The translations under genes and the position numbers were made by a program. The notes below the pieces were generated by a model. It searched no databases. It saw only the letters and a list, made by a program, of their open reading frames with translations, and was not told the origin of the DNA. A DNA stretch of 48,812 nucleotides from Candidatus Altarchaeota archaeon (GTDB taxonomy: Archaea; Altiarchaeota; Altiarchaeia; IMC4; QMZM01), in the NCBI GenBank assembly GCA_016931955.1, contig JAFGDV010000031.1, positions 1 through 48,812 of the forward strand, read 5' to 3'. The first letter of the stretch is position 1, and each line of letters begins with the position of its first letter. Below are positions 6,185 through 48,812 of the stretch, piece after piece.

Positions 6185-7051
6185 ATGATTTCAGAGGATG
6201 CTATAGTGAAAGCAGTGGTCGAACTCATTAGGAAGGCCGAGACCTCGCTTCCAGAAGACGTCGAAAGGGCATTAAAGAAGGCATATGAGAGAGAAGAGAA
6301 TGAATTGGCTAGGATACAGTTGAGGGAGATCCTCAAGAACATAGAATATGCGAGAAAGCACGCTATTACAATATGCCAGGACACCGGCTTGCTGAACTTC
6401 TACGTCAAGATTGGGAATAGGTCCGACATCAGCCAAGAGGCCGTCAGAGACGCTATAATAAAGGCCACAAAGGTCGCGACTGAAGTAATCCCGTTGAGGC
6501 CGAACGTCGTCCACCCTTTAACGAGAGAGAACTCAGGAAATAATACTGGATCAGGAATACCGGAGATAGAATTCGAGGCTATAGGAGGAAACTGCTTGGA
6601 GGTCTCTGTTCTCGTGAAGGGCGCCGGCTCCGAGAACATGTCTAAGTTGAGGATGCTGAATCCCTCGGACGGATTAAGAGGGATAAAGAGGTTCGTCTTG
6701 GAGTCTGTGGCCGAGGCCGGCGGCAATCCCTGTCCTCCAGGGGTTGTCGGCGTAGGTATTGGAGGCTCCTCTAATCTAGCAACTAAGATGGCTAAGAAGG
6801 CTTTACTGCGGAAGGTTGGGGAACGAAATAAAGATATAGTGATTGCTGAACTGGAGACTGAATTGGAGGAGAAGATCAACCGGCTCGGGATTGGAGCCAT
6901 GGGCTTAGGCGGCACGGTAAGCTGTTTAGGAGTTAACATAGAATCCGCCTACTGTCACACTGGAAGCCTCCCAGTGGCAGTGAATCTCGGATGCTGGGCG
7001 ACGAGAAGAGCAATGGTCAATATCACAGAATCAGGGTTTAAACTATCTTAA
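6185..7051 (+). CDS. fumA: Class I fumarate hydratase, alpha (N-terminal) subunit
   Basis: 288 residues, the size of the split archaeal/TtdA-type alpha subunit. With the beta subunit it interconverts fumarate and malate using a [4Fe-4S] cluster. The three expected cluster cysteines are C64 (ITICQDTG), C183 (GNPCPPGVVGVG) and C257 (AYCHTG). The beta subunit is not adjacent: it lies on the same strand at 10266-10835, beyond a three-gene cassette in the opposite orientation. The last four bases overlap the convergent DUF1667 gene. Confidence 0.93.
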   Translation: MISEDAIVKAVVELIRKAETSLPEDVERALKKAYEREENELARIQLREILKNIEYARKHAITICQDTGLLNFYVKIGNRSDISQEAVRDAIIKATKVATEVIPLRPNVVHPLTRENSGNNTGSGIPEIEFEAIGGNCLEVSVLVKGAGSENMSKLRMLNPSDGLRGIKRFVLESVAEAGGNPCPPGVVGVGIGGSSNLATKMAKKALLRKVGERNKDIVIAELETELEEKINRLGIGAMGLGGTVSCLGVNIESAYCHTGSLPVAVNLGCWATRRAMVNITESGFKLS

Positions 7052-7413
7052 CCTCTTCGGTCGACGTTCTTTGTAGCCATAATGTCTGCTCCAGTTTTCA
7101 GTATGTTTTTCAATACAACGTCTCCTATCTTTATGGGCGCGTCGACTTCTATGTCTGCGATAGCATCCATTACATCAAAGATTCTGTCTTTTGGGATCGG
7201 CTTCGAGGTCTTGACGCTGACCAAAGGCAGGACGCCGTTCCTGACCGATATGAGGGAGGTCAAGCCTCGCTCAGGCGAAAAAAGCTCCCCGCGGACGTAT
7301 TCCATGCCTTGATCGCAGAGGTTTCCATAAATCTCTACAATCTTATCTCCTTCATATTCGACTTCTATCTCGCAGCCGTTAGGGCAGATAATGCATACGA
7401 ATTTCTTCTTCAT
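7048..7413 (-). CDS. DUF1667 cysteine-rich protein of the GlpA-like cassette
   Basis: 121 residues beginning MKKKFVCIICPNGCEIEV, with a CxxCxxxC N-terminus and a fourth Cys (NLCDQG) that could bind a metal or Fe-S cluster. DUF1667 proteins commonly accompany a GlpA-like dehydrogenase and an FAD/NAD oxidoreductase, as here (8766-10229 and 7537-8769), and probably form an electron-transfer complex with them. Its first 43 bases are duplicated upstream at 7498-7540, with a cluster of hairpins between the copies. The original copy, now truncated, retains the ATGA overlap with the oxidoreductase gene, so the intact reading frame has been displaced about 127 bases downstream. Confidence 0.85.
   Translation of the reverse strand: MKKKFVCIICPNGCEIEVEYEGDKIVEIYGNLCDQGMEYVRGELFSPERGLTSLISVRNGVLPLVSVKTSKPIPKDRIFDVMDAIADIEVDAPIKIGDVVLKNILKTGADIMATKNVDRRG
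7371..7413 (-). repeat. 43-base direct repeat, copy 1 (start of DUF1667 gene)
   Basis: Matches 7498-7540 at 38 of 43 positions by eye. It begins at the ATG of the intact gene and extends 43 bases into the coding region. Differences are mostly at third codon positions, which suggests that both copies were once under coding selection or that one was acquired from a diverged copy. Confidence 0.85.
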
Positions 7414-7420
7414 TCTTCTA

Positions 7421-7494
7421 CTCTGATAATGCGTTCAGAGGGGTCAGTAGACCCCTCAATACCCGTTGTGGGTGTATGAGGCCTATAGCCTCAT
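7421..7494. repeat. Cluster of four tandem hairpins
   Basis: Consecutive, partly overlapping inverted repeats: CTCTGA/TCAGAG (7421-7440, loop 8), GAGGGGTC/GACCCCTC (7438-7457, loop AGTA), ATACCC/GGGTgTAT with one bulge (7459-7477), and ATGAGGC/GCCTCAT (7476-7494, loop CTATA). Stem sequences are unrelated to one another. The cluster occupies almost exactly the DNA between the duplicated gene starts. Confidence 0.8.
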
Positions 7495-7497
7495 TTT

Positions 7498-7540
7498 CGC
7501 AGCCATTCGGGCAAATAATGCAGATGAATTTCTTCTTCAT
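7498..7540 (-). repeat. 43-base direct repeat, copy 2 (truncated gene start)
   Basis: The partner of 7371-7413. The two copies bracket the hairpin insert at 7414-7497. This copy keeps the translational overlap with the upstream oxidoreductase gene. Confidence 0.85.
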
Positions 7541-8769
7541 TCTACTTCGACCCTCAATTCTTTAATGCCCCCCAAGTCCTTGCTCTTCAGGGATAAACGG
7601 ATCATCTCAGACGGCACAGCCCTCGTCTTCAGGATTTTTTTCACGACCTTGCCGCCGTCTTTCACTATGATCTTCTTGTCTCTGCCTGGACAGAATACGC
7701 GAAGAGACAAGGTAACATCTTTTTCTCCGCTGATCCTTTGAGGGAGAACATAGCGGACGCCGTCTCCGGGAATCACGCTGATTTTGCTTTCAGGAAAGCT
7801 TACGCCTTTAGCGTATTCTGCAGCAGATTTTCCGGCGAGCTCGCTCTCCAACGTAACCCAGTCCACTACGTCGTGAACGTGTAAAACGTTGCCGGAGGCG
7901 AATATTCCGGGAACAGAGGTCTGCAGGTATTCGTCCACTACTGCGCCAGCCGTCACAGGATGCAGTTCTATACCGGCTTGCCGAGAAAGCTCGTTCTCCG
8001 GTATCAAGCCAACTGAGAGCAGAAGAGTGTCGCATTCCATCCTTTTCTCGGTTCCAGGTATGGGATTCCATTGTTCGTCGACTTGAGCTATTGTAATAGA
8101 TTCAACCCTCCGCTCTCCCTTGATGTCGACGACGGTATGGCTTAAGTACAGAGGGATATTATAGTCTTCAAGGCATTGAACTATGTTCCTTGAAAGACCG
8201 CTGCTGTAAGGCAGGATTTCTATGACAGCTAGAACACTGGCGCCCTCCAGGGTCAGCCTCCTCGCCATGATCAAGCCAATGTCTCCTGAACCAAGGATTA
8301 CAACCTTTCTTCCGACCATATAGTTCCTCAGATTTATCAGGTTTTGAGCGCATCCTGCAGTGTAGATTCCAGCTGGTCTGTCGCCTGGGACACAGATGTT
8401 CCCTCTAGTGCGTTCGCGACAGCCCATTGCTAGTACGACAGACTTAGCCTTCACCCTCAAAAAGCCCTGAGGACTGCAGACGATAAGCCTTTTATCGTTC
8501 ACTGAGAGGACCATGCTGTTGAGCATGTATGGGATCTTGAGGTTTTCCACTTCATCGATGAAGCGTTGCATGTATTCTGGGCCGGTAAGAGCCTCCTTGA
8601 ATAATTCTATGCCAAAGCCTTCGTGGATGCATTGATTCAATATTCCCCCAAGGCTTTCGTTTCTCTCTATGAGGAGAACATCTACGCCATTCTTTTTCGC
8701 AGACAAGGCCGCTGAAAGCCCGGCTGGTCCACCCCCGATCACCGCTACGTCAACACTTCTCTCATTCAT
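7537..8769 (-). CDS. FAD/NAD(P)-dependent oxidoreductase of the GlpA-like cassette
   Basis: 410 residues. It has an N-terminal FAD Rossmann motif (VIGGGPAGLSAALSA, about 10-24), a CxxC-free GGILNQCIHEGFG segment, a second NAD-binding GSGDIGLIMARR (about 159-170) and a C-terminal flavin motif GIFASGNV. It resembles the oxidoreductase paired with GlpA-like dehydrogenases and DUF1667 proteins in Thermotoga and clostridia, where it is thought to pass electrons between the dehydrogenase and NAD(P). It overlaps the GlpA-like gene by four bases upstream, so translation is probably coupled. Natural substrate and acceptor are inferred, not shown. Confidence 0.85.
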   Translation of the reverse strand: MNERSVDVAVIGGGPAGLSAALSAKKNGVDVLLIERNESLGGILNQCIHEGFGIELFKEALTGPEYMQRFIDEVENLKIPYMLNSMVLSVNDKRLIVCSPQGFLRVKAKSVVLAMGCRERTRGNICVPGDRPAGIYTAGCAQNLINLRNYMVGRKVVILGSGDIGLIMARRLTLEGASVLAVIEILPYSSGLSRNIVQCLEDYNIPLYLSHTVVDIKGERRVESITIAQVDEQWNPIPGTEKRMECDTLLLSVGLIPENELSRQAGIELHPVTAGAVVDEYLQTSVPGIFASGNVLHVHDVVDWVTLESELAGKSAAEYAKGVSFPESKISVIPGDGVRYVLPQRISGEKDVTLSLRVFCPGRDKKIIVKDGGKVVKKILKTRAVPSEMIRLSLKSKDLGGIKELRVEVE

Positions 8770-48540: not shown

Positions 48541-48812
48541 AGCGACATTCGTCGCTAGCCCTCGCCTTAAACCAAATACCCAACATGCCGAGGTGGCAGA
48601 GCCGTGGGCACCCTTTTCTTAGCAAGAAAAGCGTGCATCAGCAAGACAGCGTTGCTGTCTTGTCTGACTCGAGACCGAAGGTCTCGCTCACGGAAAAGAA
48701 AGATCGCCGCTTAGCGTCGACAGATAAATCAACAACCACACCCTAAAGGGTGTGGTATGAACTTACAAAGTCGGCAAGTATGAGGCATTCATCTGCGACT
48801 TCAAAGTCGCAG
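48541..48812. repeat. Array of at least seven tandem hairpins
   Basis: AGCGAC/GTCGCT (48541-48556); GCACcCTTTTCTT/AAGAAAAGcGTGC (48608-48636, loop AGC); CAAGACAGC/GCTGTCTTG (48642-48662, loop GTT); CGAGACC/GGTCTCG (48670-48686, loop GAA); TCGcCGC/GCGtCGA (48704-48720, loop TTA); ACCACACCCT/AGGGTGTGGT (48735-48756, loop AA); CTGCGACTT/AAGTCGCAG (48793-48812, loop CA). Stems differ from one another, loops are two to four bases, and the array continues past the edge. It shares modules with 29018-29063. Confidence 0.85.
48587..48603 (+). other. Possible 5' fragment of a class II tRNA
   Basis: GCCGAGG-TG-GCA-GAG-CC fits the acceptor arm, positions 8-9 and start of the D arm of an archaeal tRNA-Leu or tRNA-Ser. 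No matching 3' half (CCTCGGC) follows in the window. GCCGAGGT also occurs at 48530-48537. Given the duplicated gene starts at the other hairpin sites, this may be a duplicated tRNA start, with the intact tRNA beyond the edge. Confidence 0.35.

Follow-up and report, generated by a model that had tools for sequence, protein, structure and literature searches.

A dispersed hairpin element of an archaeal phylum and the gene edges duplicated beside some of its copies

The DNA considered here is a stretch of 48,812 nucleotides of a Candidatus Altarchaeota archaeon (assembly GCA_016931955.1, contig JAFGDV010000031.1, positions 1 to 48,812), referred to as the window. In it, a gene for an FAD/NAD oxidoreductase and a DUF1667 gene are separated by a short hairpin insert that is bracketed by two copies of the DUF1667 gene start, the minus-strand order being oxidoreductase, outer gene start, hairpin insert, inner gene start and DUF1667 gene. 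The features, with their coordinates in the window, are the following:

7537..8769, minus strand: upstream FAD/NAD oxidoreductase gene (Pyr_redox_2), the stop of which overlaps the outer ATG
7497..7546, minus strand: outer (5'-side) target copy, with the DUF1667 start and its ATG at 7540; protein match E 7e-5
7418..7540, minus strand: 40-codon frame translated from the outer ATG through the element, with its stop 4 nt before the inner ATG
7425..7494, minus strand: hairpin element core, recurring in relatives (67.3 bits with covariance model R1, whose training set includes the window copy)
7476..7494, minus strand: hairpin A, type 2 (ATGAGGC TATAG GCCTCAT), of the same type as in L149, L150 and L309
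7461..7473, minus strand: conserved CACAACGGGT part, a weak 4-bp stem in the fold, from fold and alignment
7438..7457, minus strand: hairpin B (GAGGGGTC TACT GACCCCTC), the stem letters of which vary with compensation in relatives
7426..7436, minus strand: conserved 3' tag GAACGCATTAT, from the alignment
7370..7419, minus strand: inner target copy, a repeat of the outer copy, from which the intact gene starts (ATG at 7413)
7048..7413, minus strand: intact DUF1667 gene of 121 aa (Pfam PF07892, E 2.2e-31)

A repeat search found one direct repeat family in 7200-7700, formed by 7370-7419 and 7497-7546, with a spacing of 127 nt and 77 nt between the two 50-nt copies. The outer copy was matched independently, at 7490-7540, by a DUF1667 protein search of the whole genome. 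An earlier note on this DNA had claimed a duplication of the gene start, which is confirmed by identity at 44 of 50 positions in all and at 39 of 44 counted from the ATG. It was equally right that the outer copy keeps the overlap with the oxidoreductase, outer ATG and oxidoreductase stop being joined as ATGA, that the inner copy drives the intact gene, which begins at the inner ATG, and that the copies differ mainly at silent positions, four of the five differences being at third codon positions and the fifth contributing to a V/I exchange, the only difference between the two encoded peptides. Of its further proposal, that the event is not brand new or that one copy came from a diverged source, the first part fits the mostly silent differences; a foreign source is needless, because wherever the two copies disagree, either one agrees with certain relatives. 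The 40-codon frame shows no evidence of importance. Since its stop lies so close to the inner ATG, translational coupling could persist; the frame stops at once within hairpin A in L149 and L150, so that it is not a shared feature.

With a folding energy of -32.7 kcal/mol, the 83-nt insert outdoes all 200 shuffles (z -4.65). The four hairpins of the earlier note are not all firm: three stems of 8, 4 and 8 bp are found, and a weak fourth in the centroid only. In a hairpin density scan at 84 nt, four other places in the window rank above the insert and its fold alone is, therefore, unremarkable; it is the recurrence in other genomes that makes the insert more than chance. Rfam 15 gave zero covariance-model matches at the DUF1667 locus up to E 1, and across 15 element loci the sole match at the gathering level, in L165, was to a tRNA and not to the element itself.

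The DNA of the locus matches hairpin cores in the genomes G009, G004, G007 and G001, with the common order hairpin A, short linker, CACAACGRGTAT, hairpin B and GAACGCATTAT. For hairpin A, the variants CAACCTTCAGAAAGGTTG, GAAACTTCAGAAAGTTTC, CAACCTGCAGACAGGTTG and others occur, all keeping the pairing, as does a second type (TGAGGCTATAGRCCTCA or near), carried by the window copy, L149, L150 and L309. In the alignment made for R1 from 12 of 25 listed compact elements, 87.2% of the cells are paired and changes on both sides are seen at 9 of 13 pairs (22 cells), a figure that none of 500 shuffles attains; 49 of 500 shuffles equal the alignment in the measure of additional pair types, and every slid structure scores lower. 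In the three type 2 rows, whose stem has one base more, three or four of the seven pairs drawn for hairpin A are lost for that reason.

R1, the E-values of which are rough, matched 13 of the 29 genomes of the phylum at E<=0.01, nine of these being among the 13 genomes of the host's family and four in two other families of the same order, and had no match in the five genomes from outside the order. Its scores at the window, L149 and L150 are not independent, since these copies are in the training set. The matches per genome amount to 14 in G007, eight in G008 and two in the window's own genome (G000) and, outside the host's family, to 12 in G013, four in G020, three in G021 and one, weak, in G018. 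Used as a query in its own genome, the window insert finds just itself, and R1 adds one copy. There is also a decayed third copy in G000:C29 (L273, 20.1 bits), which shares with L265 of G002 a neighbouring gene ending in YITGRFG and one beginning with MPRKALDR, which look like PstB and PhoU; an older insertion is, thus, present at orthologous places in two genera. The sequences all come from metagenome assemblies, most of them incomplete and in many contigs. The insert is, thus, one copy of a family of hairpin elements dispersed in this archaeal phylum. Such a family was not among the literature matches listed, subscription papers and preprints being outside the scope of that search.

Besides the compact element, other forms and repeats were encountered. 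A long form (L152, L153, L155, L156, L163 and L271, in G001, G003 and G007) has an extra conserved arm of ~80 nt ending in CTTTATAATACAATAAAA, which resembles an archaeal TATA box, before the next gene. Many copies in G008 and G002 (L226, L227, L233, L260-L266) have extra hairpins nested in the linker or in hairpin B, as if elements land in elements, and a 90-nt form is found in tandem at contig ends of G007 (L243, L245, L246, L247, L251, L252, L254, L259), several copies of this genome lying at the 3' end of genes that end in EDVVNLINAWAG, which look like dockerin ends. A different repeat of ~110 nt, ending in GCCATTGCTTTAGA or GTCATTGCTTTAGA, sits inside the duplicated stretch at L149, upstream of galU, and at L235 (G009, G003), so that two repeat families meet there. 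Finally, at the contig end, positions 48630-48812 of the window hold a hairpin cluster, and its hairpin ACCACACCCTAAAGGGTGTGGT with flanks recurs almost letter for letter beside L308 (G000:C42), which makes a further hairpin repeat family likely in this genome.

Relatives of the host show the sites without the element. The gap between the oxidoreductase and DUF1667 genes is 126 nt here versus -1 to 25 nt in all eight host-family genomes in which the two genes are adjacent. In the 250 nt upstream of DUF1667, a second gene start is absent from 13 of 13 relatives' loci, with best scores of 6.0 to 11.5 versus 31.5 in the window. The alignment with relatives lacking the insert, which the earlier note had suggested as a check, thus gives a single gene start and no insert at 13 of 13 loci, and bears out its reading of the locus as an insertion. 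G001, of the same genus, is uninformative as to the empty site because its contig starts at DUF1667 codon 3; this break (L003, G001:C64, 1-60) may itself mark the same duplication or a repeat. A second case is that of galU, the gene behind L149, which was found in 13 of 13 host-family genomes. A second galU start is absent upstream in 12 of 12 L149 orthologues (330 nt in each, but 57 nt in L336), with scores of 4.0 to 8.5 versus 23.5 at L149, and in G002, of the same genus, the upstream gene end is 33 nt from galU.

Duplications flanking the element are found at other copies as well. When left and right flanks were compared by a fixed rule, a score of at least 14 was reached by 15 of 53 elements, by 6 of 236 shifted positions and by 0 of 159 swapped flanks; at a score of at least 20, the figures were 11 of 53, 4 of 236 and 0 of 159, respectively. 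The 53 elements exclude pattern matches with more than two mismatches from every named variant and copies whose flank falls short of 150 nt on the left or 330 nt on the right, and the 15 include L269, which is A-rich and of low complexity. In local alignments of the flanks, the duplications are direct, measure from 14 to about 140 nt and abut the 5' end of the element at the base of hairpin A. Some are perfect (100% identical), namely those of L236 (35 nt), L238 (43 nt) and L250 (48 nt); others are those of L223 (58 nt), L224 (113 nt), L220 (23 nt), L150 (14 nt) and L149 (about 138 nt). At L229, a perfect duplication of 100 nt is nested, about its first half being the sequence of a neighbouring element, and part of a neighbouring element is likewise included in the duplicated stretches of L315. 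Among 21 further matches to the model, 10 have abutting repeats (L309, L315 twice, L316, L319, L320, L321, L323, L325 and L326), that of L309 being of 55 nt with an ATG in sense and that of L320 of 132 nt. The claim that the gene is displaced and not destroyed is, therefore, upheld by the intact 121-aa DUF1667 gene and by the same element lying between duplicated targets elsewhere.

The earlier note had also named what would speak for unrelated events, that is, hairpins without duplication or duplication without hairpins in relatives. The former are seen: 38 of the 53 elements score below 14, among them long-form copies read in G001 and G007, and 11 of the 21 further matches have no abutting repeat, including L308, the strong second copy of the window's own genome. 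The latter is not seen at the 13 relatives' DUF1667 loci. Copies with no visible duplication may reflect decay or another form of the element and need not prove unrelated events. Across unrelated targets, the 5' end of the element is constant at the base of hairpin A and the 3' end is loose. The A+T content is 63% at the 3' side versus 57% at the 5' side of 28 sites, a difference (Wilcoxon p 0.056) too slight to carry an argument.

A gene start or stop was called, by a greedy reading-frame procedure that is error-prone on short stretches, inside 21 of 29 duplicated stretches versus 392 of 4509 (8.7%) random windows of like size; as the 29 were hand-picked for abutting the element, 21 of 29 is the share of chosen cases. 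L260 and L269 (weak or of low complexity), L222 and L243 (at contig edges) and, in the L315 array, the second element were left out of the 29, of which 28 served for the A+T comparison. Starts are duplicated in sense in the window, L149, L150, L229 and L238 according to the greedy call and in L309, L158 and L250 by eye. The proposal that gene starts are the target does not survive: stops of genes on the other strand are duplicated too (e.g. L220, L224, L225, L230, L265 and L320), as are a gene 3' end at L236 and the end of a tRNA-Met, identified by ARAGORN within the left copy of L325; L323 resembles a tRNA end by eye, yet ARAGORN detects none. Specificity for gene starts is thereby rejected. 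The same diversity of settings, from the starts and stops of genes to the end of a tRNA, fits neither an integron attC site nor a CRISPR or TnpB guide RNA nor a C/D box RNA, and these candidates, for which the comparison extended to Rfam, with no match to the element, were set aside.

The whole gene lies at the 3' side of the element only in 17 of the 29 stretches, at the 5' side only in two and at both sides in two (the window and L236), no edge being called in eight. Neither a simple offset cut predicts this polarity of 17 versus 2 nor does selection alone account for it.

The best explanation of the locus draws on what is observed, namely recurrence, compensatory changes in the stems, empty sites and duplications that abut the 5' end and often hold a gene edge: the insert probably arrived as a non-coding mobile element whose insertion duplicated about 50 target bases. 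In such an event, the two strands would be cut at offset places at a gene edge, the 5' end of the element would be joined inside the gene and the 3' end just outside it, and fill-in would copy the stretch between the cuts, 14 to 140 nt. The neighbouring genes would be kept whole through the copied stretch, and gene-breaking insertions would be lost. Insertions that spare the adjoining gene in this way could survive in dense genomes; a long and variable duplication would, thus, let the element enter genomes with almost no intergenic space. More tentatively, and with less confidence than in the insertion itself, a putative insertion machine of this archaeal order may be envisaged, which would bring a folded non-coding strand with its exact 5' end into a gene edge and its 3' end outside, copying 14 to 140 target bases each time and keeping the entered gene whole, with neither a Y1 transposase nor a reverse transcriptase.

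A serious rival, though in our judgement a rather unlikely one, is template switching in replication, by which a strand would exit a gene edge, copy an element elsewhere from the hairpin base and re-enter 14 to 140 nt upstream, recopying the target with no dedicated transposase. It accounts for the wide spread of duplication lengths and fits the existence of nested and tandem elements and the outcome of the search for helper enzymes, which covered RVT_1 and Y1_Tnp and identified no helper, but chance switching is not expected to enter unrelated targets at one fixed point, the base of hairpin A. Short eukaryotic retroelements combine an exact 5' end, a loose 3' end and a duplication of variable length, all of which are matched here, so that a hairpin transcript copied back by target-primed reverse transcription was weighed as well. 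RVT_1 (PF00078), however, is found in 0 of 13 host-family genomes, which are incomplete, versus 3 of 14 named genomes in the control, and this route is consequently disfavoured and held to be improbable; divergent enzymes or genes in genome gaps could escape such a search. As to enzymes of the REP-associated (RAYT) kind, Y1_Tnp is present in 5 of the 29 genomes, only two of which bear copies (G008 and G006), and is missing from 11 of the 13 copy-bearing genomes, including the two copy-richest, G007 and G013; this distribution, together with the larger duplications, disfavours a RAYT route. A viral or plasmid source is unsupported: viral contigs gave 0 matches to the type 1 pattern and to the core pattern that fits the window copy, and phages and plasmids gave no blastn match with the long-form relative L152 as the query.

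That the start duplication and the hairpins together form a regulatory RNA leader, retained because it controls the downstream gene, agrees with the compensatory stem changes and with a start codon duplicated in sense in all four window-type copies (the window, L149, L150 and L309), but elsewhere the element is found beside the stops of genes of either strand and beside the end of a tRNA, and every relative examined lacks the insert at the DUF1667 locus, which makes this reading very improbable. An assembly artefact, or a tandem duplication and chance hairpins as unrelated events, is the least credible account, for while the sequences are all metagenome assemblies and several G007 elements stand at contig ends, the same core lies between duplications in several genera, the start copies diverge by 12%, unlike a chimera, and the swapped-flank control gave 0 of 159.

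Taken as a mobile element, the insert may be compared with several known systems. Prokaryotic MITEs have terminal inverted repeats and flanking direct repeats (PMC10969869). The element resembles them in being short, non-coding and dispersed and in that some copies carry direct repeats, which wane with age (PMC10969869); flanking direct repeats of this type are indeed present, at the counts given above. Unlike MITEs, it has internal hairpins, duplications from 14 to about 140 nt and no end-to-end inverted repeats: as aligned and modelled here, hairpin A folds back on itself and the GAACGCATTAT tag is unpaired with the 5' end. To REP and BIME sequences, moved by RAYT, it is likened by dispersed palindromes with stems held by complementary changes; the IS200/IS605-like enzymes with which REP elements are associated produce no larger duplication of the target (PMC2817692), which sets this system apart from an element with duplications of this length and from genomes mostly lacking Y1_Tnp.

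The double-hairpin and repetitive hairpin-forming elements of mitochondria (Allomyces, sponges) are similarly gene-less mobile hairpins, nested or in tandem, and those of Allomyces are cited as being without flanking duplications (PMC2800124); they are organellar, whereas the present element is archaeal and has duplications. The fungal mitochondrial mobile ORFs (Allomyces atp6; Glomus atp6, atp9, cox2 and nad3) likewise leave a second copy of a gene end, a surviving gene and mostly silent differences, and bring with them an endonuclease gene as well as a gene end of foreign origin (PMC3630166). The element differs from them in being non-coding, no endonuclease gene being found in the insert, with its 77 nt, and in that the duplicate can be 100% identical (L236, L238, L250). 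Finally, Rickettsia palindromic elements likewise form hairpins and encounter coding sequence in the small genomes that hold them (PMC10969869); they integrate in frame inside protein genes, while those described here are mostly at gene edges with a duplicated stretch. Since a defining feature of each compared system is missing, the element is filed as a variant of miniature elements: it acts like a miniature mobile element, and its insertion step is possibly new.

Where genes abut or overlap, an insertion should in most cases disrupt one of them. An element able to copy the edge into which it inserts would avoid this cost, would show how repeats build up in very compact genomes, and leads one to expect spurious short reading frames and uncertain gene starts beside such elements. 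It also raises the question of which enzyme produces target duplications of 14 to 140 bases, for which the polarity of the duplications, with the extra copy mostly 5' of the element (17 to 2), offers a testable handle on the mechanism.
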